From positions 1 to 37,623 of the forward strand of contig JAUNPQ010000016.1 in NCBI GenBank assembly GCA_030536615.1: a DNA stretch of 37,623 nt. The letters run 5' to 3'. Position numbers and translations under genes: made by a program. How positions within the stretch are numbered: position 1 is the stretch's first letter; every line of letters starts with the position of its first letter. Of this stretch, positions 9,145 to 27,519 are shown in pieces. The stretch comes from Bacteroidales bacterium (GTDB taxonomy: Bacteria > Bacteroidota > Bacteroidia > Bacteroidales > Muribaculaceae). Under the pieces are notes generated by a model, which made no database searches, was not told the DNA's origin, and saw only the letters and a program-made list of their open reading frames with translations.

Positions 9145-10419
9145 ATGAAAACAAGAATATTTATTTATAATCTGCTGACAACAACAGCCATTGCTGTCGC
9201 ATCAATGATGATGTCGGCTTGCAGCAACGATGATGATAATGTAACGCCGCACAAGCAGGAAGCAAAACCGCTCGTAGTAGATGAGGCTCAGAAGACAATT
9301 ATAGCAGCCCACAACAAGTTTGCGCACAACTTCTTTGCATATGCGCTGAAAGCTGCCAACGGTGACAATGTGGCAGTGTCTCCGCTCAGTGCTGAAATAG
9401 CGCTTAGCATGCTTGCCAATGCCGCCGACGGAGAGACGCAGACCGAGCTATTGAATGTTTTGGGATACAGTGACATGACCGCACTGAACAGCTTTAACCG
9501 CTATATGCTGGAAAATCTCCCTATGGTTGATCCCTCTCTTGTCAGACTTGACCTGTGCAATTCCGTTTGGCTGAACAGTGACTGGAATGTGTCATTGACC
9601 CCTGCGTTCACAAATACACTTGACAGTGACTACTCTGCCTCAGTCACATCTCTGCCGTTCAGTAATTTCAATATAAACATCAAAGCCAATGAATGGGTGG
9701 ATGAAAAAACCCAAGGGATGATAAATAAATTTTATGAGGAAGATGAAGATTTGTCCCGACTAAACTTTTCATTGCTCAATGCCATGTATTTCAACGGCAA
9801 ATGGAATGAGAATTGCAAATTCGACAAGAAAAAAACTGAGCCGGCGGATTTTACATATACTGATGAATCAGGAACCAAAGCGACCAAAAAGGTTGAAATG
9901 ATGACCACTATGTATACAGGTTTTGGCTGTGAAAAGCCGGGCGAATATAAGGCTGTAAAGTTATATTATGGACAAAATGCTTTCTACATGCTTATTGTTG
10001 TGCCTGAAGATGGCCAAGACATAAATTATTGCATGTCAAACGCCATGAATGTCAAAGCGCCTGATGTATATTGGCAACCTTATCGGCTCACGCTGAAATT
10101 GCCACGTTTTGAAAATGAAGCAACAATCCAAATGACTCCATTCCTTATAGATGCCGGAATAGACATGGAGAGATGTAATCTTTCTAACGTTCTTAGCGAT
10201 GGAAAACCTGTTATAGATGAGCAAATCTTTATAAAACAATGCACAGCGATAAAGGTATATGAAGAAGGGACTGAGGCAGCCGCTGTAACCGGTATTGACG
10301 GAGTGGGCGCCACACTAATATATCCGTTGACAGTGACAGCAGACCGTCCGTTCGGCTATGCTATTGTGGAAAAGGAAAGCAATACAATCATTATGATGGG
10401 AGCATTCCAGAAACCATAA
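9145..10419 (+). CDS. Surface lipoprotein serpin (serine/cysteine protease inhibitor)
   Basis: A 424-residue serpin behind a lipoprotein signal: MMSAC places the acylated Cys at residue 26, followed by SNDDDN, an acidic run like the export signal of surface-displayed Bacteroidota lipoproteins. The serpin core covers about 50-424. The reactive-centre-loop hinge EEGTEAAAVTGI (from residue 373) keeps Thr at P14 and small residues at P12-P9, the pattern of inhibitory serpins; the scissile region is near VGATL. The C-terminal serpin signature DRPFGYAIVEKESNTIIMMG is intact. I chose ATG 9145 over an in-frame TTG six bases upstream. A strong terminator follows (10441-10480). Confidence 0.93.
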   Translation: MKTRIFIYNLLTTTAIAVASMMMSACSNDDDNVTPHKQEAKPLVVDEAQKTIIAAHNKFAHNFFAYALKAANGDNVAVSPLSAEIALSMLANAADGETQTELLNVLGYSDMTALNSFNRYMLENLPMVDPSLVRLDLCNSVWLNSDWNVSLTPAFTNTLDSDYSASVTSLPFSNFNINIKANEWVDEKTQGMINKFYEEDEDLSRLNFSLLNAMYFNGKWNENCKFDKKKTEPADFTYTDESGTKATKKVEMMTTMYTGFGCEKPGEYKAVKLYYGQNAFYMLIVVPEDGQDINYCMSNAMNVKAPDVYWQPYRLTLKLPRFENEATIQMTPFLIDAGIDMERCNLSNVLSDGKPVIDEQIFIKQCTAIKVYEEGTEAAAVTGIDGVGATLIYPLTVTADRPFGYAIVEKESNTIIMMGAFQKP

Positions 10420-16023: not shown

Positions 16024-17481
16024 ATGACAGATTCTTCACGGCCATGTCCGGACGCGGACAAGACGGCTGAAAACAAAAAACCGAACAGCAATCATGCTCC
16101 TGAGCAGCAGACTGCTGACCATTCTATATTCTATGCCGCCCGCCAGGCGCTAAGGCGCCATGCCACCGGCGGTAACATACTTATTTTCTGTACTGTTCTG
16201 GCTCTGGTCATAGCAAATATTCCCGCCATAAACGGGCACTATTTCCAGTTCTGGGATCAGGAAGTACGCCTACAGATCGGGTCATTCAACCTGTTCAGTC
16301 ACGAGGGACACCCCATGACAATGCTACAGTTCATAAACGATGCCCTGATGGCCGTGTTCTTTTTCTCGATAGGTCTTGAGATAAAGCGTGAGGTGCTTGT
16401 GGGTGAGCTTTCATCGTTCCGTCAGGCGCTTCTTCCCATCATGGGTGCCATAGGAGGTATGGCGATGCCCGTGCTCATCTTCCTTTTCCTGAGCAAAGGC
16501 ACCGATTACGCCGGGGGCGCGGCCATACCCATGGCAACAGACATAGCCTTCTCACTGGGCGTGCTTGCCATGCTGGGCAAACGTGTGCCGCTGTCATTAA
16601 AGATCTTCCTGACAACACTTGCTGTGGTTGATGACATAGGCGGAATCATTGTCATCGCCGCTTTCTACTCCACACACATTGAGCTCACATTGCTTGCCTA
16701 TGCCGCCGGTCTGCTGGCGTTGCTGCTTTTAGGTTCGGCATTGAAAATAAAGAGTCAGGCATTCTATCTTGGCATAGGGACTGCCATATGGTTCCTGTTT
16801 CTGAACTCCGGCATACATCCCACCATAGCCGGTGTGCTTGTTGCCTTCTGTGTACCTGCACGTCCGGTCTATTCGCCCAAGAAATACATCAAGAAAATGC
16901 GCAAGGCCATAAGCAATTTCCGCAGTCAGGATGACGAGATACTTACCAAGAAATCCATTCTCACATGCGAGCAGATGAACTGGCTCAAGCAGGTTGAATC
17001 AGCATCAGACAAAGTCATCTCTCCGCTTCAGGAACTGGAAGACACTCTCCATCCCATTGTCAACTATTTTATCCTGCCTCTGTTTGCTTTTGCCAATGCC
17101 GGGATATTCCTGCTTGACATGGATCCGATGAGTATTTTTGAAGGTGTCTCCCTGGCCATAATCCTAAGCCTTGTTCTGGGAAAATTCTTAGGCATACTTT
17201 CATTTTCGTGGCTTACGGTCAAGACCCGCATGGCCCCCATGCCGGCACATTCAAACTGGCATGAGATGTCATCAATCTCTATGCTTGGCGGCATTGGATT
17301 CACCGTGTCACTGTTCATAGCCACATTGTCATTCGGAAGCGACCCCGCTCAGGCTGACCTTCTGGCACATGCCAAACTCGGCATTGTTGTAGGCTCTCTG
17401 ATATCCGGCATAATCGGCTTCCTGTGGCTTCACATCACACTGCCCAAAGGCATTGCTCCCGATGCCGTAGATCCTGACTGA
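16024..17481 (+). CDS. nhaA: Na+/H+ antiporter NhaA
   Basis: A 485-residue inner-membrane sodium-proton antiporter, used for sodium and pH homeostasis. The hydrophilic N-terminus (1-33) is followed by about 11-12 membrane segments. Asp203-Asp204 in TTLAVVDDIGGIIV correspond to the ion-binding Asp163/Asp164 pair of E. coli NhaA, and Asp173 in ATDIAFSLGV to Asp133. The protein is longer than the E. coli form (388) mainly through the N-terminal tail and a charged cytoplasmic loop (about 280-345, with KKYIKKMRKAI). It is monocistronic, with a possible structured leader and a bidirectional terminator at 17503-17541. Confidence 0.96.
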   Translation: MTDSSRPCPDADKTAENKKPNSNHAPEQQTADHSIFYAARQALRRHATGGNILIFCTVLALVIANIPAINGHYFQFWDQEVRLQIGSFNLFSHEGHPMTMLQFINDALMAVFFFSIGLEIKREVLVGELSSFRQALLPIMGAIGGMAMPVLIFLFLSKGTDYAGGAAIPMATDIAFSLGVLAMLGKRVPLSLKIFLTTLAVVDDIGGIIVIAAFYSTHIELTLLAYAAGLLALLLLGSALKIKSQAFYLGIGTAIWFLFLNSGIHPTIAGVLVAFCVPARPVYSPKKYIKKMRKAISNFRSQDDEILTKKSILTCEQMNWLKQVESASDKVISPLQELEDTLHPIVNYFILPLFAFANAGIFLLDMDPMSIFEGVSLAIILSLVLGKFLGILSFSWLTVKTRMAPMPAHSNWHEMSSISMLGGIGFTVSLFIATLSFGSDPAQADLLAHAKLGIVVGSLISGIIGFLWLHITLPKGIAPDAVDPD

Positions 17482-17502: not shown

Positions 17503-17541
17503 AAAATGGGCTGTACCTCACAACTGGCACAGCCCATTTTT
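17503..17541. terminator. Bidirectional terminator between nhaA and the cobalamin operon
   Basis: A perfect 12-bp stem (17503-17514 with 17529-17540) carries A-runs on one arm and T-runs on the other. It lies 21 bp after the nhaA stop and 26 bp after the last gene of the convergent cobalamin operon. Confidence 0.85.
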
Positions 17542-17566: not shown

Positions 17567-19006
17567 TTATCTTATCATGACTTTACGTGCCGATGATGTG
17601 GATTTCCAGATATAAATGCCTCTCTGCAATGCCGGCCACTGTCCATATTCAACTTTATGGGCAACAAGAACGCCGCCAAGCGTATACAGATCGCCATAGG
17701 GTTCAGTATCTTCGGCAGTCATATCAACTATGCCTGAATTGTCCCTGGCCTGCGGGAACACAAACAATGACGGGAACCAGTAGTTGCTTATCATGGGATA
17801 CTCTTTGATTACATTGCCCTTGTTGTCATAACGCACAGTCATATAAGTGGGATCGCTGAACTGATGGAACAGTGAGGCATAGAGTTCATCAGTCTTGGGA
17901 TGTATTCCCAATGAACACCCGTATAGATGCCAGTCACCGGCCGTGTAGTCAATGATTTTCTCAAGCTTGCGGCTGTCAATGTCATACTTGAATATCCTGT
18001 AGTTTGCGAACCAGCTGTTGTCACCTCCGCACCAGTAGAGAGTATTTGTCATCTCTGAGGCGCAGAATGGATCAGGAGTCCATGCATACCATGAATTTGC
18101 GGGAGGATACATGCCGTCACCTGAGATTTTTATGACCTCGCGCTCAAGAGTCACCGGATCAAGACGGATAAGATATGGCACTGCCGCACCTGTTCCCTGC
18201 ACATTCTTGGACGCCGCATACCACAGATTTCCGTCCTTTGATTTCACTATGGTTGAACCTATTCCGGAAGTGCGCCGCGGGCGTGTTCCTGTGTCCTGCT
18301 CAATCGCATCATCAACAATTTCCATGTCAAGGATCTGCTCCACGCGGTCTGTCTGCGGATCAACGACAAGCATGCCATATTGCTGATGGACAGCAAAGAC
18401 TTTTCCGGCCGCAAGCATCATTGTGCCTGTCTGCCCGTAATATAGCGAACTTGTGGGGTCTCCCGCCGGCTTGTCATTGTCACCGCCTGCATTAGGGTTT
18501 GCAGACCCCTCAACCTGCCCCTCTATCTCAAGGGTTTCAAGATTCAGAATCCACATTCCGTTGCTCGACGAGACATATCCTTTTTTGTCAGATACGCCCA
18601 CAAAAGCGCGGCCGTCACATTGTTTGCCGGATGGATCTATGAGCTGCAGCTGTTTTATCATTTTCATGGTTCTGGCATCAGCCACTGAGATGCGTCCGCC
18701 AATGATCTGAGCGCCGGGATCTTTTTCCTGCTTTGCGATCATATAGATGCGTCCGTTCCATATGGCGCCATACTGGTTGGTGCATCCCAGTTCCATGCCG
18801 GGATTCTCTTTCTGTATGACACGGTATTGCCAGTAGTCACCGGCCTGATCATCAGGCAAAAGATAGTTGACCGTTGAATTCTGATGTCCGTACCAGTCCT
18901 CGTTGATTATGATTATTCCGTCTGAATAATCATTTTCTCCGGCAGCCGCCATCCGCGGTAAAGCGGACAGGAGTGCCAGAAAAAACAATGTCATGCTCTT
19001 TTTCAT
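17567..19006 (-). CDS. Secreted beta-propeller protein with T9SS-like C-terminal signal (cobalamin operon)
   Basis: A 479-residue protein with a signal peptide (1-22). The body has repeated beta-propeller blades similar in layout to the BtuG-like protein of the same operon: an opening DGIIIINEDW near the start, and blades such as GRISVADARTMKMIKQLQLID and GYVSSSNGMWILNLETLEIE. This is the DUF5074/YncE-like type. The last 40 residues (from DLYTLGGVLVA to RGIYIWKSTSSARKVMIR) resemble a type A T9SS sorting signal. It has no lipobox, so it would be anchored or released by T9SS. It is the last gene of the riboswitch-controlled operon, 2 bp after the preceding gene. Role in cobalamin binding is inferred from context only. 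Confidence 0.75.
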   Translation of the reverse strand: MKKSMTLFFLALLSALPRMAAAGENDYSDGIIIINEDWYGHQNSTVNYLLPDDQAGDYWQYRVIQKENPGMELGCTNQYGAIWNGRIYMIAKQEKDPGAQIIGGRISVADARTMKMIKQLQLIDPSGKQCDGRAFVGVSDKKGYVSSSNGMWILNLETLEIEGQVEGSANPNAGGDNDKPAGDPTSSLYYGQTGTMMLAAGKVFAVHQQYGMLVVDPQTDRVEQILDMEIVDDAIEQDTGTRPRRTSGIGSTIVKSKDGNLWYAASKNVQGTGAAVPYLIRLDPVTLEREVIKISGDGMYPPANSWYAWTPDPFCASEMTNTLYWCGGDNSWFANYRIFKYDIDSRKLEKIIDYTAGDWHLYGCSLGIHPKTDELYASLFHQFSDPTYMTVRYDNKGNVIKEYPMISNYWFPSLFVFPQARDNSGIVDMTAEDTEPYGDLYTLGGVLVAHKVEYGQWPALQRGIYIWKSTSSARKVMIR

Positions 19007-19008
19007 AG

Positions 19009-19578
19009 TCAGATTGCTTTAGAATCTAATTTTCTCATACTTATCACCGGTTCTGCGGGTGCCGTAGCATCGGCGGCAGTGTACTCCAGAACAACGTCAT
19101 CACCGGTCGCAACAGTGGTTTCACAGGTAGCCTCCGCGTTGTTGACAAAGATTTTCCAGCATGTTGCATCAGAATTCACCTTCCAGTGGTCATAGTCCGA
19201 TGATCCTTTGGCTGCAGAATAGTCATCGGCAGTCACAGCAACACCGGCAATGAGTTCCAGAGCACCGCCCACGCTTATGGCCTCCGAGTTGTCACCGTTG
19301 GTGTCAAAGCCGAAAGCTACGAATGAATCCCCACCATCTTTCAGCGCATAGAAGCGCGGATCCTCAGCAAGAGCGGTGTTAATGATGTCACCAACAGTAG
19401 CCGTACCGTTAAATTTCACGGTGCTTGCAAGATTGTCAATGGCGACATCGTCACCCCAACGCACAGTCAGTGTTGTTGTCTGACTGCCTTCTCCAAGCAC
19501 ATTCCGCGCCGGCTCCGTTGCCGACATTGCTGAACCTGCCACAAACAAAGCAGTTGCAATAATGATTTTTTTCAACAT
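19009..19578 (-). CDS. Small secreted protein with DUF4430-like (transcobalamin beta-domain-like) pattern
   Basis: A 189-residue protein with a cleavable signal peptide (about 1-19). The mature part has the layout of DUF4430, the domain type that forms the beta-domain of animal transcobalamin and intrinsic factor: TVGDIINTALAEDPRFYAL, then FVAFGFDTNGDNSE, then WKIFVNNAEATCETTVATGDDVVLEYTA (the W-x-hydrophobic-x-N ... GD ... Y pattern). The match is by eye, not by profile. It has neither a lipobox nor a T9SS signal. It lies 11 bp after the preceding gene and 2 bp before the next, so it is clearly part of the operon. Confidence 0.68.
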   Translation of the reverse strand: MLKKIIIATALFVAGSAMSATEPARNVLGEGSQTTTLTVRWGDDVAIDNLASTVKFNGTATVGDIINTALAEDPRFYALKDGGDSFVAFGFDTNGDNSEAISVGGALELIAGVAVTADDYSAAKGSSDYDHWKVNSDATCWKIFVNNAEATCETTVATGDDVVLEYTAADATAPAEPVISMRKLDSKAI

Positions 19579-19589
19579 AATATTCCGGT

Positions 19590-21032
19590 TTATCTGATAT
19601 ATATTTTGTTTACTGTATTTCCTCGCCGTTCAAGGTATATGCCTGTCGACAGATTCTCCGCTGCGACTTTCACACCGGTCAGTGTAAAGTACTCGGCTGT
19701 ACCATCCGTATCAGCGGCAATGTCCTCAACCCCGGATGACGGATCGCGGTGTGTGAAGTTGAGCCGGTTGGAATCAAACTCAGGAGTTTCATTGTCTGAA
19801 GCGCTTACAATGAGCACTGCTCCGGGGTTAAGCCATCGGTTTGACGGTACCTGCACAAACTCGGCGTCAACCACACGGCGTATATATGTCTTGTAGGTTG
19901 TACCGGCTGCTTCTGCAGGCGCATATACTCCGCTTCGGGCCGCATCGCCACTGCCATATGTGTATGTCAGGCTTATTTCTCCATCGTTGTTTGTGACAGT
20001 GAGATGGCTGTCAGCCTTGGCCAGATTTTCAAGGACGGTTGTGAAACGGTCATCATATCCGCCGGTCCACCTGTAGCCGTACACAATATCGTCGGTGCTG
20101 TCACCGTTGGGCACACGGACAATGACCGTGGCCGTTTTCTCACCTTTGTCCTTGCCGCCCCAATATTGTATCTTATCCATATCCATGAGACTTACAGGAG
20201 CCCGGTATTCTTTCCACTGTTCATTGTAACCTTTTATGTCATAGCTTAGCTCCTCATTGAGGTCACCGCCAACTGACATTGTCTCGTCAGGAAGAATCGG
20301 GGTGGCTTTCCAGACCTGCACATACCCGTCAACCAGAAGGGTACTGCTCATGCCAAGTGCGGAATAGCTGACGTCCTCATAGTCGTTTGGGCCGTGCCAA
20401 TAGCTCCAATAGCCTTTGTACCAGTGCGCGTACCAGAGAAACGAGGGATTCTCCGCGAGTGTGGCGGCGTCCAGATCCCAGAAATCATAATCATAGGCCG
20501 GATAGCCGTAACGGATCGCATTCAGCGGATGTTCAATGATGCCTGTCTCTTTTGCCACTTCTATAGCGTCATAGCACATCGGTTCAGCCTCAGGGCCGGG
20601 GCAACCGTCCTGACCCATCGCTGTGGTAGGAGAGGTATAGCCGAATGACACGTCTGTTGATTCAGATGCACTTGCGTAATCGTAAATAAGATAGTCAAGT
20701 TCTTCCCTGTCATCACTAATGCCCAGGCCGTTCAACGTGGACCCCATGGTGCCGGTATATTGCACAAGAGCTGTCAGCACACTGCTCTGCGCGGCAACGG
20801 CACGCACAAGGTCCTCGCCGGTCTTTGTGCCGTTCCATCGATAACCCCACACATAACAATAATTCTTACCGGCTTTCTGAAAATCAATGATCAGTGCCGT
20901 ACGGTTTTCACCGGCGGGATCACCGGCCCAGTACTGTATCTTGTCCCAATCAACCCAGGGCACAACCTCATAGGCCTGATGGGCAAAACTTATTGCCGAC
21001 AAGGCAACGAATGTGAGTAAAATTTTTTTCAT
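19590..21032 (-). CDS. Secreted two-module protein of the cobalamin operon, T9SS-like C-terminus
   Basis: A 480-residue protein. I place the start at ATG 21032, giving a signal peptide MKKILLTFVALSAISFA; a longer frame to 21110 would bury it. Two related modules are visible: DKIQYWAGDPAGENRTALII ... WGYRWNGTKTGEDLVRAV near the N-terminus, and DKIQYWGGKDKGEKTATVIV ... YGYRWTGGYDDRFTTVLENL in the second half. Between them is a Tyr/Trp-rich region. The C-terminus (EYFTLTGVKVAAENLSTGIY, ending KIYIR) looks like a T9SS type A signal. It is preceded by a 46-bp gap and followed after 11 bp. I do not know a function; position in a B12-controlled operon suggests corrinoid capture. Confidence 0.78.
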   Translation of the reverse strand: MKKILLTFVALSAISFAHQAYEVVPWVDWDKIQYWAGDPAGENRTALIIDFQKAGKNYCYVWGYRWNGTKTGEDLVRAVAAQSSVLTALVQYTGTMGSTLNGLGISDDREELDYLIYDYASASESTDVSFGYTSPTTAMGQDGCPGPEAEPMCYDAIEVAKETGIIEHPLNAIRYGYPAYDYDFWDLDAATLAENPSFLWYAHWYKGYWSYWHGPNDYEDVSYSALGMSSTLLVDGYVQVWKATPILPDETMSVGGDLNEELSYDIKGYNEQWKEYRAPVSLMDMDKIQYWGGKDKGEKTATVIVRVPNGDSTDDIVYGYRWTGGYDDRFTTVLENLAKADSHLTVTNNDGEISLTYTYGSGDAARSGVYAPAEAAGTTYKTYIRRVVDAEFVQVPSNRWLNPGAVLIVSASDNETPEFDSNRLNFTHRDPSSGVEDIAADTDGTAEYFTLTGVKVAAENLSTGIYLERRGNTVNKIYIR

Positions 21033-21078
21033 ACTTTTATCTTTGATTGATATGGTTTTAGGCGTTGAATGATATAGT

Positions 21079-22281
21079 TTATTTTCCGAGAGGATCAGGT
21101 AGCGGGACACCCGGCAGGTCTATATGCAGGTCCTGAGCTTTTGACAACTCCGTGGATGTCTCTCCAAGCCATCCGCAATACTGGTTCAGACCGGTATAGA
21201 CGCGGATGAAATCAGCACCCGGCAGATGCACCGGGTTCCCGTCGCTGTCCACAGCGTGGCCTATGTCAAAGCTGTTGAGATCAGGATAATCATTGGGATG
21301 ATTGTCAACATATCCCCAATCAAAGGCATAGAGAACATAGTAACGTCCTGTCCCGCTAAGGTCTATGCCGTTGGGTGGAAGACATGTGCCGGTGAACGAA
21401 ATTGTATTGTCGGTGACCCAGGCAGGAAAATAATCCTGTGAATGGAAGATGTTTTTGGCAATATGCCCGCGCGTACCGTCAGTGTCCTCCCAGGCAATAT
21501 AGTTTATGTCATTGAGATAGCCGGTGTCATCCTCATCTATCACGCGGTCAGGATCAGGGCGGTGATAGATGATGCCGTAACGGTGCTTGCTCTTTGCATA
21601 TGCACTGCCGGCAAGTTCATACCATGGGTCATCAGGAATACCGTTGCAGTTTGCGTCATAGCTGACCATGACTATTCCCGGTTCGGCAGAGCCGCCTTTC
21701 GCATCGGGATTGGTCAGTTCGTAAAAAGCATTTCCCCAGATGCGGAAATCTTTTTCGCCGGGAACGTTGATGACGGTGTGGTCAAACCCGAATGTCACAT
21801 AACCGCCATAGCCTCCCAGTGAAATCATCACATCATTTGTGCCTGAGATGGATTCCTCGCATTTTTTCAGGATATCCGCATAGGTGTCTCCGGGCTCATA
21901 TTGCGGCATTGTGTTTATGAACTGTCCCGGGGCCGGACAATATTCATACACTCGCGTTATGTAAGGGCTGTATTCAACTTCCTCATGCAGCACATTCACC
22001 GTGAAGTCGAAATGGTAGGGTGTCTCGGGGTCTATTATGTCAAATGACATTTCATAGGTTCCTTCTTCCTGAGCTATAAAGATATAATTGTCAGCATCGG
22101 AAACCTCTTTGCCGTTGATTTTCCAACTGTAGCGCTGACCTGTCAGCGCCGACCTTAGAGGGAGCTTGGACATGCGCGGAATGTAGTACACTTCATCAAT
22201 GCCCAGATTGACCATCGGAATGTCATCGGTACATGATATAAGTGCACAAGGGCTTAATATAAACAGTAACGTTTTTTTCAT
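21079..22281 (-). CDS. Surface lipoprotein with PKD-like N-terminal domain (cobalamin operon)
   Basis: A 400-residue lipoprotein: lipobox LISC puts the lipidated Cys at 17, followed by TDD, an acidic surface-export pattern. Residues about 35-115 look like an immunoglobulin/PKD-type domain (YSWKINGKEVSDADNYIFIA). The main domain has the sequence SLGGYGGYVTFGFDHTVINV and AEPGIVMVSYDANCNGIPDD, a pattern I recall from uncharacterised Bacteroidota cell surface proteins. It may correspond to the accessory B12-binding lipoproteins reported in Bacteroides (BtuH class), but I cannot confirm this. Its start overlaps the stop of the BtuG-like gene by 4 bp, so translation is probably coupled. Confidence 0.8.
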   Translation of the reverse strand: MKKTLLFILSPCALISCTDDIPMVNLGIDEVYYIPRMSKLPLRSALTGQRYSWKINGKEVSDADNYIFIAQEEGTYEMSFDIIDPETPYHFDFTVNVLHEEVEYSPYITRVYEYCPAPGQFINTMPQYEPGDTYADILKKCEESISGTNDVMISLGGYGGYVTFGFDHTVINVPGEKDFRIWGNAFYELTNPDAKGGSAEPGIVMVSYDANCNGIPDDPWYELAGSAYAKSKHRYGIIYHRPDPDRVIDEDDTGYLNDINYIAWEDTDGTRGHIAKNIFHSQDYFPAWVTDNTISFTGTCLPPNGIDLSGTGRYYVLYAFDWGYVDNHPNDYPDLNSFDIGHAVDSDGNPVHLPGADFIRVYTGLNQYCGWLGETSTELSKAQDLHIDLPGVPLPDPLGK

Positions 22282-23435
22282 TGATAAAGGAATGTTATGT
22301 GTGCGGGAATATCACCGGTGCGCACACTCCATTTCTTATTACCATCGCGGCCAAAGCAATAAAGTGTTCCGGAAGACACATAGTTCTTGGCATCGGTCAC
22401 GAAGATATCACCGGTAATAGGGTGGATAGCAATACCGTATGGTATAGTGATGTCCTTGTCTGTGCCGTCAGTGATAAAATTGTCTGATACAATCTTCTTT
22501 GTCCGTATGTCTATTATGCCGTAAGAGATTGTGTTTGTGGCCGTGTAGTTGTTCCACTCTGTGGCATAATAATAGAGCGAATCACCATAGATGGCCATAT
22601 TTGTGCATGCAACGGGAATTGTGTCCGTGACAATCATTTTGTTGTAGCCCGGTTTCTTTGAAAGTACATAGAGCCTTGACGGGCGCGATTCATAGTCACC
22701 GCGCGATGTCACCCAGAGTTTCTTGTACCGGTCTTTTTTCAGCCGGTGCAGGTTTATACCCACCGGAATCTGCTCAACCTGCTTGAAGTCAATCATCTGT
22801 ATCACAGAAACAGTATTGTCGTAATTGGGTACACGGTAACCTCCTGAATTTGCCACATACATATAGTCATCAACAACCTCCATCTCCTCCGGCTGATAGC
22901 CTACGGAAACTTTACGCGTCACAGCAAGCGTGGCGGTGTCAATTTCAAAGACAGCACCTTTGGGGGCATTGGCATCAATAAGCACCGGCCCGACATAGGA
23001 GCTGACGTATGCTTTCCCGCGATGGAAACGCACATAGCGACAGTTGGGGATGTCTATCTGCCCGATACGGATGCCGGTATGGGCATCCATCACCTCAACT
23101 TTATGCGAGCAGTTCACAACCACATAAAGCTTTGAACCGTAAATTCCGATATCATTACCAACATCGCCAAGTTCCTTGATGACATTGGGGTTCTTCTCTG
23201 AATAGAAATTGCGTGAGAAAAGGCCTGTATAATAGTCATAGAAGTCAAGGGTGCATTTGTTGGAGCCCATGTTGCCCTCATTGACAAGATAGAAGCCGCG
23301 GAGCGGGCTTTGCGGGGACTCGTCACCAATAATCTCATACTCCGTAGGCACCACGAGTTCGTCCTCTCGACAACTCGTGGCAACCATCAGGAGTGGCAGA
23401 AAAAAATATATGAAAAACTGTTTTTTTACGTTCAT
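22278..23435 (-). CDS. btuG: BtuG-like surface cobalamin-binding beta-propeller lipoprotein
   Basis: A 385-residue lipoprotein with its Cys at residue 22 (MVATSC) followed by REDE, a surface-export signal. The rest is a YncE-like beta-propeller with blades such as NDIGIYGSKLYVVVNCSHKV, RVPNYDNTVSVIQM and PYGIAIHPITGDIFVTDAKN. BtuG proteins of Bacteroides cap the BtuB transporter and bind cobalamin very tightly. Position fits exactly: its start overlaps the btuB stop by 4 bp, in a riboswitch-controlled operon. The symbol rests on family pattern plus context; binding residues were not checked. Confidence 0.85.
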   Translation of the reverse strand: MNVKKQFFIYFFLPLLMVATSCREDELVVPTEYEIIGDESPQSPLRGFYLVNEGNMGSNKCTLDFYDYYTGLFSRNFYSEKNPNVIKELGDVGNDIGIYGSKLYVVVNCSHKVEVMDAHTGIRIGQIDIPNCRYVRFHRGKAYVSSYVGPVLIDANAPKGAVFEIDTATLAVTRKVSVGYQPEEMEVVDDYMYVANSGGYRVPNYDNTVSVIQMIDFKQVEQIPVGINLHRLKKDRYKKLWVTSRGDYESRPSRLYVLSKKPGYNKMIVTDTIPVACTNMAIYGDSLYYYATEWNNYTATNTISYGIIDIRTKKIVSDNFITDGTDKDITIPYGIAIHPITGDIFVTDAKNYVSSGTLYCFGRDGNKKWSVRTGDIPAHITFLYQ

Positions 23436-25429
23436 ATCTCAACAGTCAGTGTTACCCGGAAATTGCGTTTTGGCATCGGATAATTCAAAATAACGTCATA
23501 ATCCTGGCTGAGCAGATTGTTCACTTCAAGCAATGCACGCATATTGACACGTCCAAGCGTCAGGTCGCGGCTGAGGGATATATCACTTGTATACCACGGC
23601 TGCGTGTAATTGTAGCGGATGTTCTCCTGCTGGTTATAGCGCTCACCCACATATATATAGCTATAGTTGAGATTCCATTTGCGCCATGTGAGATTTATGA
23701 CCGCGGCGCCTGAGTTTCGGGGAATATATGGAATCTGGTCGCGGTAGTAATTGTCAGCGGGATTGGTCACGTCAATGGCACGCTGGAAAGTGTATTGGGC
23801 GCGGACTGTGGCATAGAAATCACGGAAGGGATTCAGAGTGACAAGCGCCGTCACGTCAATACCGCGGATGTCAACTTTGCCCAGATTGAGCATTGTCCAG
23901 CGGAACTGCTGACCTTTGGGATATGCCACAATCTTGTCTTTTACGCGGTTATAGTATATGTCTGTGCTGAAGCGCATGGCACTGACAAATCCACGGTCAT
24001 TCTTGCTGAACAGAAGGCCTAAGTTGTATTGTGTCACACGTTCAGGTTCAAGCTTGGAGTTGCCCATATCGGCATAATAGAGATCATTGAAAGTCGGCAT
24101 GCGGTATGACTGCTTGTAGAATGCCCGTGCCGAAAGGCCTCTGCACAGTGTGTATGACACAAAGGCGGCGGGGGTGAGCACATGTTTGTCGGCCAGAGCT
24201 TCCTGACCTTTGAGTATGTCATGGATAAAAGTACCCAACACACTTCCCTGAAATTTGAAGCGCCTGTAATCTATGGCAGTGGCCACTGAGAGCATGTTTG
24301 TGAACCGGTCAGGTTTGGCAAAGCCATATACATCAGCATCAAGAGCGTTCCACATGAAATCATATGCGGCTGAGACGTGCCACCAGGGAAAGATAGTATA
24401 TTGGTTGGATGACGAGAAATAGACCTCTTTTTGTTTGTAGAGATTGTCAATCTTTATCTGTTTGTCATCATTGTTCACATAATGTGTGCGGTAAAAAGCA
24501 TATTTGAGATTGTTGAGCGTTGTGAACTTGCCGAAAGACTGTGTGTAGCTGCCCTGTACAAACGAGTTTGTGTCCCATATTCTCTCGCCGCGCCGCCACA
24601 CGTTGTTGACAATAGCGCCTGGAACGCCCCGCTCAGAATTGTAGTTATAGGCCTTGAAATGCCACTCTCCAAGATTCAGTTGCCCGTTGACATTAACTTC
24701 GATACGCGTGGCGTTTATGTCACCGTTCTGGCGCACAGCCGTTGTGTCATAGGCAAGTTCTCCCGCCGGATTGACACGGCGATAACGGAATTTGTACTTG
24801 CCGCTTGAGTTTATCCATTCGGCACTGAGAGAGGTGTTCACTTTCTCGGATAACTTGAGTTCCACCAGAGCGGAGGGGTTTAAAAGATCAAATGAGCCGG
24901 TGCGCATCGTGGCTCTGGCATGATAGGTCTCCTGGCCGTTGAAGCGGGGAGTGCGCGTGCGTATGTATATTGAACCGGCAGAGCCGAAATCCTTGGCCGG
25001 CTGCAGAATCTCGCTCTTCTGGCCGTTATAGAGCGATATACCCTCGATGTTATCAAGCGAGAACTGGCCGAGGTCAATCTGCCCGTTCTGAGCATTACCG
25101 AGTTCCACACCATCATATACAACGCCGGTGTGGTTGGTTCCCATTGACCTTATGTTGACTGTCTTGATACCTCCCACCCCGCCATAATCTTTTACCTGAA
25201 CACCTGAGAAATATCGCAAGGCATCGGCAATGCTGTTACTGTTGAGACGTTGCAGTTCCTCTCCGTCAAGACTTTGCGCAGGTATCACCTCGACTTTCGG
25301 GGTCGCCGCTGTGACAACGACTTCGTGCAGCCGCTGTATTTTGTCAGGATTGAATGTTGAGTCCGATGGCTCTGTGGCATAGGCGGCAATGATGGCCATG
25401 CACATAAGAGTTGCTGGAATAGGCCTCAT
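23432..25429 (-). CDS. btuB: TonB-dependent cobalamin transporter BtuB
   Basis: A 665-residue outer-membrane receptor. After a signal peptide (about 1-19) comes a TonB box (LHEVVVTA, about residues 34-41), a plug domain (about 50-160, with IADALRYFSGVQVKDYGGVGGIKTVNIRSMG) and a beta-barrel to the C-terminal aromatic-ended strand FRVTLTVEI. It lacks the carboxypeptidase-like N-terminal domain of SusC proteins, consistent with a BtuB-type importer. A cobalamin riboswitch and attenuator lie just upstream (25459-25795), which supports cobalamin or another corrinoid as the substrate. First gene of a six-gene operon. Confidence 0.93.
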   Translation of the reverse strand: MRPIPATLMCMAIIAAYATEPSDSTFNPDKIQRLHEVVVTAATPKVEVIPAQSLDGEELQRLNSNSIADALRYFSGVQVKDYGGVGGIKTVNIRSMGTNHTGVVYDGVELGNAQNGQIDLGQFSLDNIEGISLYNGQKSEILQPAKDFGSAGSIYIRTRTPRFNGQETYHARATMRTGSFDLLNPSALVELKLSEKVNTSLSAEWINSSGKYKFRYRRVNPAGELAYDTTAVRQNGDINATRIEVNVNGQLNLGEWHFKAYNYNSERGVPGAIVNNVWRRGERIWDTNSFVQGSYTQSFGKFTTLNNLKYAFYRTHYVNNDDKQIKIDNLYKQKEVYFSSSNQYTIFPWWHVSAAYDFMWNALDADVYGFAKPDRFTNMLSVATAIDYRRFKFQGSVLGTFIHDILKGQEALADKHVLTPAAFVSYTLCRGLSARAFYKQSYRMPTFNDLYYADMGNSKLEPERVTQYNLGLLFSKNDRGFVSAMRFSTDIYYNRVKDKIVAYPKGQQFRWTMLNLGKVDIRGIDVTALVTLNPFRDFYATVRAQYTFQRAIDVTNPADNYYRDQIPYIPRNSGAAVINLTWRKWNLNYSYIYVGERYNQQENIRYNYTQPWYTSDISLSRDLTLGRVNMRALLEVNNLLSQDYDVILNYPMPKRNFRVTLTVEI

Positions 25430-25458
25430 CTATAAGGTTTTGTCTGATGTAACTATAC

Positions 25459-25499
25459 AAAAATTTCCCGTTTTGTGGACTGTGGCCGCAAACGGGAAA
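25459..25499 (-). terminator. Riboswitch-controlled attenuator ahead of btuB
   Basis: On the minus strand a perfect 10-bp stem (25499-25490 with 25473-25464) is followed directly by five U residues (25463-25459). It sits between the B12 aptamer and the btuB start (29 nt further on). Upstream segment 25526-25536 is complementary to its 3' arm at 10 of 11 positions and could act as an antiterminator. Confidence 0.8.
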
Positions 25500-25594
25500 A
25501 TATATGATGACAATCGTTATCTGACAAAACCGGAAATGCTGCATCCTGCCTTGTATTTCTTAGTCCATGATCCCGTAGACGGTAGTTCTATGTG

Positions 25595-25795
25595 ATATGG
25601 CAGGTCTTCTGACTTATCCCGGTTTGTCCGCGCCTTCCCGGCTTTGCAGCCAGTGACTTGATGCGGAAAACTTTTGCCCGGCAGATCAACACCGTTCCGG
25701 GCGGGAAATACAGCAGCGGGTACTGTCAAGGATTCTAACCTTGTTCCCTATTAATGCTCTTAAGTCCCGTCTCTTCAGGACAAAGCAACCATTTC
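25595..25795 (-). promoter_or_regulatory. Cobalamin (adenosylcobalamin-type) riboswitch
   Basis: Read on the minus strand, the conserved cobalamin-aptamer segments appear in order: GGTTAGAATCC, ACAGTACCCGCTGCTGTA, GTCACTGGC, and the 3' B12 box AAGTCAGAAGACCTGCC (at 25615-25599). The aptamer begins directly after the btuB promoter. High cobalamin should favour the downstream attenuator and shut off all six genes. The exact 5' boundary is approximate. Confidence 0.93.
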
Positions 25796-25800
25796 TGCCG

Positions 25801-25832
25801 CAAAGATACAACTTTTTATTTTATAGCCCAAA
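25801..25832 (-). promoter_or_regulatory. Bacteroidota-type promoter of the cobalamin operon
   Basis: Minus-strand TTTG (25832-25829), a 20-bp spacer and TATCTTTG (25808-25801) match the consensus. Transcription would begin near 25795, at the start of the riboswitch. Confidence 0.8.
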
Positions 25833-25925: not shown

Positions 25926-26636
25926 ATGAAAAGAAAATTGCGTCAGCACCTCACCCTGTCATTTCTCGTAGCTGCCACGGCATTGTGCTTTCACATGCCG
26001 GCGCACGCCCAGACATCGGCTCAGGCTTTCATTGAAGTCAACGGAACCACAACATTGAACATAGCCCCTGACCGCATAACTGTTGAAATTGAGATCGAGG
26101 AATACTTCCGGCCGGACAAAAGCGGTGACAGCACCGTTGTCAGGCTGCGTGACATAGAGAGGTCCGTGCGCAAGGAGCTTTCCGGAATAAACGTGCCTGA
26201 CTCACTCATCATCACGTCTGATCTTGGCAATTACCGCGACCGGAGAACGGGAGGCCGCTTTCTAATGGCCAAAAGCATATCGGCCACACTCACGGATTAT
26301 CAGCAGCTTGACCGGCTCTCGGAGAAAATGTCAATGCGCGGCATAAGGAGTTTCCGCATTGCCCGTCTTGACAACAGCATGCTTGAGACCTATAACCGTC
26401 AGGGCCTTAAGGGAGCGCTTGATGCTGCACGTGCCAAGGCCGAATTCATTGCTGAGAATGAAGGTCTTGTGATAACCACCCCTCTGGAAATAATTGAGAC
26501 CGGCATAAACAGCTATGGTATGCCGGCAGTCAGCAATGCCGCCTACGATGCCGGCGGCAGCATGGAGAACATGCGCCACATCACGCGCCGCTACAATGTG
26601 CGCGTCCGCTATCTGTTCTCGCCAAAATCCAATTGA
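25926..26636 (+). CDS. SIMPL-domain (DUF541) envelope protein
   Basis: A 236-residue protein with a signal peptide (about 1-28, cleaved after AHA). The mature part has the DUF541/SIMPL layout: an N-terminal strand region FIEVNGTTTLNIAPDRITVEIEI, the helical GALDAARAKAEFIAENEGL segment, and a final strand ITRRYNVRVRYLF. The family is periplasmic or surface-associated and has no agreed biochemical function. It is transcribed divergently from the cobalamin operon and converges, with a 4-bp gap, on the M15 peptidase gene. Confidence 0.85.
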   Translation: MKRKLRQHLTLSFLVAATALCFHMPAHAQTSAQAFIEVNGTTTLNIAPDRITVEIEIEEYFRPDKSGDSTVVRLRDIERSVRKELSGINVPDSLIITSDLGNYRDRRTGGRFLMAKSISATLTDYQQLDRLSEKMSMRGIRSFRIARLDNSMLETYNRQGLKGALDAARAKAEFIAENEGLVITTPLEIIETGINSYGMPAVSNAAYDAGGSMENMRHITRRYNVRVRYLFSPKSN

Positions 26637-26640
26637 ACGG

Positions 26641-27519
26641 TCATCTGTGCGCTTTGTACAGGTCTCTGTAATGAAGTAGTTCGGGACGAAACTCAAAGTG
26701 CATGGTGTCATAATGATACCATGCGCCGCCCCATATGAATCCGTGTTTCTCAAAGATCTCCACAATCCGGGCAGGTATGCGGTTGCGATATCGGATTCTG
26801 TCTGTTTCTCTGGCCCGCGGATTCCGGAATTTCCAATAATCCGATTTGTCAACGCCTATGTCAAAGGCTATGCCATAGCTGTGCGCGCTCTGACGGTTTG
26901 CTCCGCGCACCTTGCGCCAATAAAATGTTCCGGATGATTTAAGCAACGGTCGCAGATCCGGGTGAGCCGCAAGTTCTGCCGCCACCCGCCGCAGAGAATC
27001 AGCAGCACCGTTTGTGCGGCTGAAATACACGCGTTGTCCAAACCAATCAACACGCTCCAACTGCCGGCGCACAGCCGCCTCATCAGCGCCATACATCTTT
27101 TTGAAGAAAGCATCGGAGCGCGAGCGCCCGGCATCAGAGAGATAGGCAGGTGCGGAATCAGGCACCTCGTAAGGGACAAAAAACATATCCTCTATGTCTG
27201 AATTGTCAAGCAGTTCGTCAAAGGATTTTTCTTTTCCGTCATCATAAGTCAGCTCTGACCCGTCTGCCATGCGGATACGTCCGTCGGCATATCCCACAAC
27301 AAAATCCGGATACGCGTGCATAAGTGCCCTGACGCCAAGAGGCATATCCGGCTGTATCCCGGCCGTGTCCTCCTTTGCCTGACACGGCACGGTGTCAGTC
27401 ACCGTTGTTTCATCCGCCCCATGTATGGCTGAGACAGAAGTGTCGCTGCCGGACGCGCTGCATGAGGTGATCCACAGCAGCATGACCGGCAGCGCCATTA
27501 TATTCTTTGTCAATGTCAT
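26641..27519 (-). CDS. M15-family peptidase lipoprotein (peptidoglycan peptidase)
   Basis: A 292-residue lipoprotein with its Cys at 20 (WITSC). The C-terminal half is an M15 (VanY/L,D- or D,D-carboxypeptidase type) metallopeptidase. The zinc ligands are His213 and Asp220 in SAHSYGIAFDIGV and His274 in MHFEFRP; WYHYD just before supplies the catalytic acid region. Members cut peptidoglycan stem peptides. The start codon overlaps the stop of the WG-repeat lipoprotein gene by 4 bp, so both are probably made together and act in the periplasm. Confidence 0.88.
   Translation of the reverse strand: MTLTKNIMALPVMLLWITSCSASGSDTSVSAIHGADETTVTDTVPCQAKEDTAGIQPDMPLGVRALMHAYPDFVVGYADGRIRMADGSELTYDDGKEKSFDELLDNSDIEDMFFVPYEVPDSAPAYLSDAGRSRSDAFFKKMYGADEAAVRRQLERVDWFGQRVYFSRTNGAADSLRRVAAELAAHPDLRPLLKSSGTFYWRKVRGANRQSAHSYGIAFDIGVDKSDYWKFRNPRARETDRIRYRNRIPARIVEIFEKHGFIWGGAWYHYDTMHFEFRPELLHYRDLYKAHR

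Follow-up and report, generated by a model that had tools for sequence, protein, structure and literature searches.

Which function is served by the three genes that follow btuB, btuG, and btuH behind a single cobalamin riboswitch in a genome of the gut family Muribaculaceae? The locus lies within a 37,623-nucleotide (nt) stretch from a Bacteroidales bacterium (GenBank assembly GCA_030536615.1, contig JAUNPQ010000016.1), hereafter the window. We read it as a cobamide-uptake operon in which genes 4 to 6 encode further exported capture proteins and assign this reading a probability of roughly 0.78. The riboswitch-controlled B12 operon is real and recurrent, and its core is already known; what is new here is the distal unit, in which an unnamed, transcobalamin-like module stands behind the known btu core. 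Genes 4 to 6 very probably serve cobamide acquisition, because the layout, the linkage to btu genes, and the riboswitches recur in relatives. This recurrence supports the initial annotation of this DNA, which had assigned the distal genes to corrinoid acquisition.

A riboswitch precedes six genes with a known btu core

Six open reading frames (ORFs) are collinear on the minus strand, separated by gaps of -4, -4, 46, 11, and 2 base pairs (bp). The arrangement of a riboswitch followed by six genes with these gaps had been proposed before and is confirmed by the RF00174 match and the ORF map. The features are as follows.

25832-25801, minus strand: probable promoter TTTG-N20-TATCTTTG, read by eye
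25808-25582, minus strand: cobalamin riboswitch aptamer, RF00174, 88.4 bits (gathering score 31.5; E = 1e-20)
25459..25499, minus strand: attenuator-like hairpin CCCGTTT...AAACGGG followed by a T-run, 5' of btuB, fold -14.6 kcal/mol
25429-23432, minus strand: btuB, TonB-dependent B12 receptor, 665 amino acids; Pfam barrel 1.7e-28, plug 3.5e-16
23435-22278, minus strand: btuG, beta-propeller lipoprotein, 385 amino acids; PDB 8blw 2.8e-41 and 8ptf 1.5e-39, DUF5074 57 bits
22281-21079, minus strand: btuH (gene 3), lipoprotein with a PKD-like domain and a BtuH B12-binding domain, 400 amino acids; PDB matches
21032-19590, minus strand: gene 4, 480 amino acids; signal peptide (by eye), module A (residues ~15-250), module B (~270-420), and C-terminal tail (425-480); module profile
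19578-19009, minus strand: gene 5, 189 amino acids; signal peptide (by eye) and one module, without a C-terminal tail; module profile
19006-17567, minus strand: gene 6, 479 amino acids; signal peptide (by eye), DUF5074 beta-propeller (PF16819, 354.4 bits against a cutoff of 27.2), and C-terminal tail
17503..17540, minus strand: terminator-like hairpin of 15 pairs between gene 6 and the converging nhaA, fold -25.7 kcal/mol

The start of gene 4 was set at the ATG at 21032; the first start reported by the ORF program is a GTG at 21110. The element at 25832-25801 has the form that we take to be the Bacteroidota promoter consensus, and a simple scan returned 20 promoter-like sites against 13.4 expected. 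Compared with shuffled sequences, the hairpin ahead of btuB had a z score of -2.8, with equally good folds in 3 of 200 shuffles, and the hairpin directly 3' of gene 6 had a z score of -6.3, with none in 200. Neither was listed by a simple terminator scan, which found 7 candidates against 7.9 expected by chance. With this layout, the six genes would be co-transcribed.

The first three genes correspond to published components. For btuB, the best NCBIfam model was TonB-B12 (96 bits, under the equivalog cutoff of 600). Lipoboxes were read by eye in btuG (ATSC) and btuH (LISC). The initial annotation had named gene 3 a PKD-type lipoprotein, which agrees with a PKD_3 match of 29.3 bits (cutoff 26.3); that it is an uncharacterized PKD protein is ruled out by its C-terminal ~280 residues, which match the BtuH domain of PDB 8blw (5.5e-68) and BtuH2 in 7biz (1e-44). 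Six B12-contacting residues of BtuH2 are given in the available part of PMC8941943, and five are identical in gene 3 (Q120, N184, H280, Y314, and W371), with Trp511 replaced by Y315; the mapping sets residue numbers and chain indices 100 apart, the sole offset of three tried that fits all six letters. By homology, gene 3 is thus BtuH with a PKD-like domain and is predicted to bind cobamides. It follows that BtuB and BtuG are not the only members with well-known roles, as had been stated, and that the uncharacterized proteins number three rather than four. In the accessible portions of three papers, BtuG is described as a lid on BtuB, and BtuH as a high-affinity catcher in its own right with no stable association with the complex (PMC10404256, PMC8941943, and PMC6143338); a single stable six-protein machine, the enlarged surface machine proposed earlier, is not supported.

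Genes 4 and 5 carry one domain in three copies

No Pfam or NCBIfam model matched gene 4, gene 5, or their modules above cutoff, and PDB sequence and profile searches with the modules gave no usable match. The module was instead described by a profile (A3) combining 13 modules from relatives with the window's own module A; module B and gene 5 are outside it. When the same genome was searched with A3, three places were found, all in the operon: module A (3.9e-62, a match true by construction, as module A is a row of A3), module B (8.2e-9), and gene 5 (5.8e-6). A profile of gene-5 orthologs (A7) likewise matched A3 in a profile-profile comparison (98.2%, E = 5.7e-14, 122 columns). Gene 4 is therefore a protein of two modules, A and B, as the earlier description of a duplicated-module protein had it, with the correction that gene 5 shares the domain family of gene 4.

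The identity of this domain is suggested by more distant relatives. Modules linked to riboswitches in distant genomes (A6) matched A3 over 66 columns in its N-terminal half (99.5%, E = 4.3e-22) and matched A7 as well (96.6%, E = 5.2e-10). From A6, the path leads to DUF4430 (PF14478): both module copies of one protein, L220, match this family (2 of the 15 members), the first copy at 28.1 bits against a cutoff of 23.8 with a best E value of 1e-6, and the whole L220 protein scores 47.6 bits. Gene 4, gene 5, and their modules in the window showed no direct DUF4430 match above the gathering score. According to the accessible text of PMC4350170, DUF4430 is the domain at the C terminus of transcobalamins, and the available part of PMC1796856 predicts a transcobalamin-like beta-grasp clade to be a B12 scavenger in bacteria. 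The module of genes 4 and 5 thus resembles, via intermediate profiles only, members of the superfamily of DUF4430, the beta-grasp domain of transcobalamin, and the transcobalamin-like small domain suggested earlier is upheld through these intermediates. BtuJ/DUF4465 was rejected as an assignment for genes 4 and 5, with no match to Pfam PF14717. A weak NCBIfam match to SCO2322 in 3 of 32 members (best E = 0.09) gave no further lead.

Gene 5 has a further peculiarity. Its domain occurs in 13 proteins of relatives that are 900 to 2,154 amino acids long, near the N terminus in 9 of them, and gene 5 is shorter than all 13. Because it stops where these proteins continue, and gene 6 begins 2 bp later, gene 5 is, judged from these alignments, a shortened version of a larger protein found in relatives.

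The module is linked to btu genes and riboswitches in Muribaculaceae

The family sample comprised 149 genomes from 30 genera. Strong matches to gene 4 were found in 31 genomes (the window's own and 30 others), spread over 13 of the 30 genera. A higher tally of 112/149 module carriers was discarded, as many of the listed matches were to the C-terminal tail only. Among the 30 other genomes, btuG and/or btuH were located beside the module on the same strand in 29, and the exception is on a 3.9-kilobase (kb) contig. Seven weaker loci (L064 to L070) stand outside this count; btu genes were near the module in six and absent at L065, which is close to a contig end.

A motif search for the module retained the best 80 of 133 relatives. 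At these 80 loci, btuB was found in 64, btuG in 68, and btuH in 74; 64 loci had all three and 74 had at least one, and the number encoding a gene-6-type propeller (>250 bits) was also 74. The gene-order conservation that had been put forward as a check was thus observed, in that the layout recurs. The 30-locus and 80-locus sets overlap, partly on the same contigs, and are not independent. No btu gene was found at six loci, five of which are on contigs of 3.9 to 8.6 kb. At the sixth, L146, a cobalamin riboswitch of its own (9612-9832) precedes the module gene (at 9980) by approximately 150 nt, and the ORFs in the upstream 10 kb include no btuB, btuG, or btuH; it is a stand-alone module-propeller set. 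Apart from L146, the riboswitch search covered 23 of the 37 larger family loci and was positive in 20 (7/7, 5/8, 3/3, and 5/5). For the three misses (L043 to L045), the upstream region falls outside the locus.

The linkage extends beyond the family

Module profile matches were also obtained in 7 other genomes among 395 sampled from the phylum and in 23 among 198 sampled from the order. These yielded 28 nonfamily loci from 27 genomes, with G149 and G659 left out and G206 counted with the phylum sample. A cobalamin riboswitch was present at 25 of the 28 loci (6/7, 8/8, 7/9, and 4/4). In 17 of these 25, the module gene directly follows the riboswitch, about 50 to 250 nt away with no gene in between, and in the other 8 it is inside a btu cluster behind the riboswitch. 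Genes resembling btuB, btuG, or btuH were found at 22 of the 28 loci, with scores above 100 bits at 16. Seven genomes in which cobalamin riboswitches were counted had two to four each, and chance proximity of riboswitch and module is therefore not a serious explanation. One locus, L205 (6656-19501), has a tandem pair of btu clusters, one of which encodes a BtuG-BtuH fusion, and the module protein that closes the array has a riboswitch to itself.

A separate group of 17 loci, f59, presumably from Bacteroidaceae-like genomes, encodes extra exported proteins, of which the nine scanned were assigned to DUF4465 (four), DUF5074 (three), receptor-L (one), and a leucine-rich repeat below threshold (one). 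Among the ORFs listed, the module profile was seen at two of these loci, L260 and L261.

Gene 6 is a propeller that is often fused to the module

The product of gene 6 has one solved relative, PDB 9s6c (4.5e-14). Together with BtuG, it makes up the two beta-propellers counted in the initial annotation, a count borne out by the 8blw and PF16819 matches listed above. Matches to gene 6 at an E value of 1e-10 were found in 13 of the 198 order genomes. Excluding the window's own, six of these genomes have it at known module loci, five more have it behind btuB-btuG-btuH, and one (L287) has it elsewhere. At the six module loci, the match is mostly to the propeller domain of the module protein or of its neighbor.

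Fusion of the two parts is common. A module and a DUF5074-type propeller occur in one ORF of 900 to 2,154 amino acids in 57 of the best 80 motif-found family loci, and module-propeller fusions outside the family are about 750 amino acids long. At some distant loci (L208, L209, and L216), an N-terminal stretch that appears by eye to be a propeller precedes the module. In the window, the module and propeller parts are separate polypeptides. Genes 4 to 6 probably act together, because relatives often carry such parts as one polypeptide.

Some module fusions additionally contain immunoglobulin (Ig)-like domains or BspA leucine-rich repeats with a C-terminal tail. BspA-type repeats were observed in B12-locus proteins, most of them with a module (L045, L055, L066, L069, L070, and L203), a combination unusual for vitamin uptake.

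Genes 4 to 6 are predicted to be exported

Signal peptides without a lipobox were read by eye in genes 4, 5, and 6. The C-terminal 55 residues of gene 4 resemble parts of other ORFs in the same genome (six places listed), and the gene 6 tail is included with the gene 4 tail and other family tails in an alignment, A4. A Pfam scan gave no direct Por_Secre_tail match for genes 4 and 6. The A4 profile matched one built from the tails of distant module proteins, A5 (88.7%, E = 2.6e-6); five of the six A5 rows come from proteins above the PF18962 (Por_Secre_tail) cutoff, and the sixth, L064, is below it. The resemblance of the gene 4 and gene 6 tails to type IX secretion signals is no more than suggestive.

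Components of the secretion system were looked for as well. PorV is encoded in the same genome (1.7e-69), and SprA_N was found in 143 of the 149 family genomes, including all nine others of the genus; absence of type IX secretion from the lineage was rejected on these grounds. Elsewhere in the window, a protein at 33572-34924 matches the CHU_C domain, a type IX secretion signal, at 61 bits, an indication that type IX signals are used by the lineage.

Proposed function and alternative explanations

From gene order, the riboswitch, homology, conserved linkage, and fusions, we infer co-transcription, localization, ligand binding, and hand-over in the following model. When cobamides are scarce, the riboswitch would let transcription run into all six genes. 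BtuB and BtuG would form a transporter with its lid, and BtuH, by homology, an additional surface catcher of B12. The products of genes 4 to 6 would form a third tier of exported proteins that catch cobamides, those of genes 4 and 6 leaving the cell probably by type IX secretion via their C-terminal tails and not as lipoproteins. All three would bind cobamides, or proteins that carry them, and would hand the ligand on to BtuH and BtuG, from which BtuB would import it. Corrinoid binding by these three proteins is a prediction from their sequences and their genomic setting.

Several observations weigh against this reading. Strong gene-4 matches are lacking in 118 of the 149 family genomes, and the unit is not universal. 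The DUF4430 link hangs on one distant protein, L220, which is 1 of 17 full-length module proteins and contributes 2 of 15 single modules. Three of the 28 nonfamily loci (L173, L211, and L213) gave no riboswitch match; the L173 contig ends just past btuH and L211 is at a contig start, while L213 is not at a contig end. A gene-6-type propeller of a genome from the same family (L287, 9426-10904) has no B12 gene near it, the window's own draft assembly gave no SprA_N match, and gene 5, which lacks the rest of its protein, may be a remnant. In addition, the available text of PMC12751083 states that BtuL and BtuK2, encoded in such operons of Bacteroides thetaiotaomicron, bound no cobalamin in the authors' assay, and co-regulation therefore does not prove binding.

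This last point leads to the most substantial rival, that genes 4 to 6 bind no corrinoid and encode surface proteins with a scaffolding, adhesive, or vesicle-related role, co-regulated because they support the uptake proteins. BtuL provides the precedent, as it belongs to a riboswitch operon and gave no sign of B12 binding, yet promotes early vesicle release, according to the same portion of PMC12751083. The BspA-type repeats and Ig-like domains in the module proteins of several relatives, which are usual in adhesion, point in the same direction. However, the proteins at L212, L218, and L220 comprise little beyond a signal peptide, a tail, and a module or a pair of modules, and they are encoded directly behind a riboswitch, so that the link to B12 falls to the module itself; the module also resembles, through the chain of profiles, a domain that contacts B12 in transcobalamin. 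We regard the rival as unlikely. It is very unlikely that the distal genes are silent or nonfunctional in this strain, with gene 5 a remnant or the assembly misjoined, so that btuB, btuG, and btuH alone matter. The end of gene 5 and the start of gene 6 just behind it would fit such a loss, and the genome is a draft of 114 contigs at 93.9% completeness, but the frames of genes 4 and 6 are open over their full length and encode a signal peptide, domains, and a tail, and gene-6-type proteins (>250 bits) recur at 74 of the 80 motif-found loci.

Capture of cobamides by exported proteins thus stays the preferred reading, and it admits a more ambitious, tentative extension that we hold to be doubtful. 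The unit may be a Bacteroidota analog of intrinsic factor, consisting of secreted carriers in which a transcobalamin-type beta-grasp module is combined with a propeller (DUF5074, or another in distant relatives) in place of the animal alpha/alpha toroid, and the two sandwich the cobamide between them. Such carriers would be type IX-exported cobalophores that load BtuH, BtuG, and BtuB and possibly rival host intrinsic factor; they would recur in the Muribaculaceae B12 operon and here be split into separate polypeptides.

The capture reading gives a testable function to a riboswitch-linked Bacteroidota domain family that is not recognized by Pfam or NCBIfam. It would also link Muribaculaceae, a common gut family that is abundant in mice, to a domain found in the transcobalamin and intrinsic factor of animals. 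Gut communities are shaped by competition for B12, and the products of genes 4 to 6 would be additional players in it.

Neighboring genes and a second riboswitch

The operon is flanked by a SIMPL-domain protein (25926-26636), divergent from btuB, an M15-type carboxypeptidase (26641-27519), and the converging NhaA antiporter (16024-17481). A second cobalamin riboswitch (67 bits) was found on contig C1 of the same genome (C1:196-400; loci L002 and L063). It is directed off the contig end, so the gene behind it is not on the contig; upstream of it, on the same strand, are genes that look by eye like cysE and cysK.

Comparison with known systems

No account of these modules in Bacteroidota B12 loci, and none joining type IX secretion with cobalamin or B12 binding, was found among open-licence PMC papers, the former judged from listings. 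The closest known systems are cobamide loci 1 and 2 of B. thetaiotaomicron, which combine BtuB, BtuG, and BtuH with BtuJ, BtuK, and BtuL. Common to these loci and the operon described here are the riboswitch, a TonB-dependent BtuB, the BtuG lid, BtuH, and extra exported proteins. The extra proteins differ, as those in the window are putative transcobalamin-like modules and a DUF5074 propeller without a lipobox. BtuJ (DUF4465, PF14717) is, according to the accessible portions of PMC12751083 and PMC13398666, an exported B12 binder of riboswitch loci, a role predicted for genes 4 to 6 as well; it has a jelly-roll fold, whereas none of the six operon genes has a Pfam match to PF14717.

The transcobalamin-like SLBB clade with DUF4430, as presented in the available part of PMC1796856, offers a second comparison. 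Its members are extracellular, predicted B12 scavengers, sometimes with Ig-like or beta-propeller partners and with a second paralog in the operon. They are reported there from animals, low-GC (guanine plus cytosine) Gram-positive bacteria, planctomycetes, and a few archaea, in association with CbiO/CbiQ genes and alpha/alpha toroids. In contrast, the window modules, which reach DUF4430 indirectly only, occur in Bacteroidota, beside BtuB, BtuG, and BtuH, and together with propellers.

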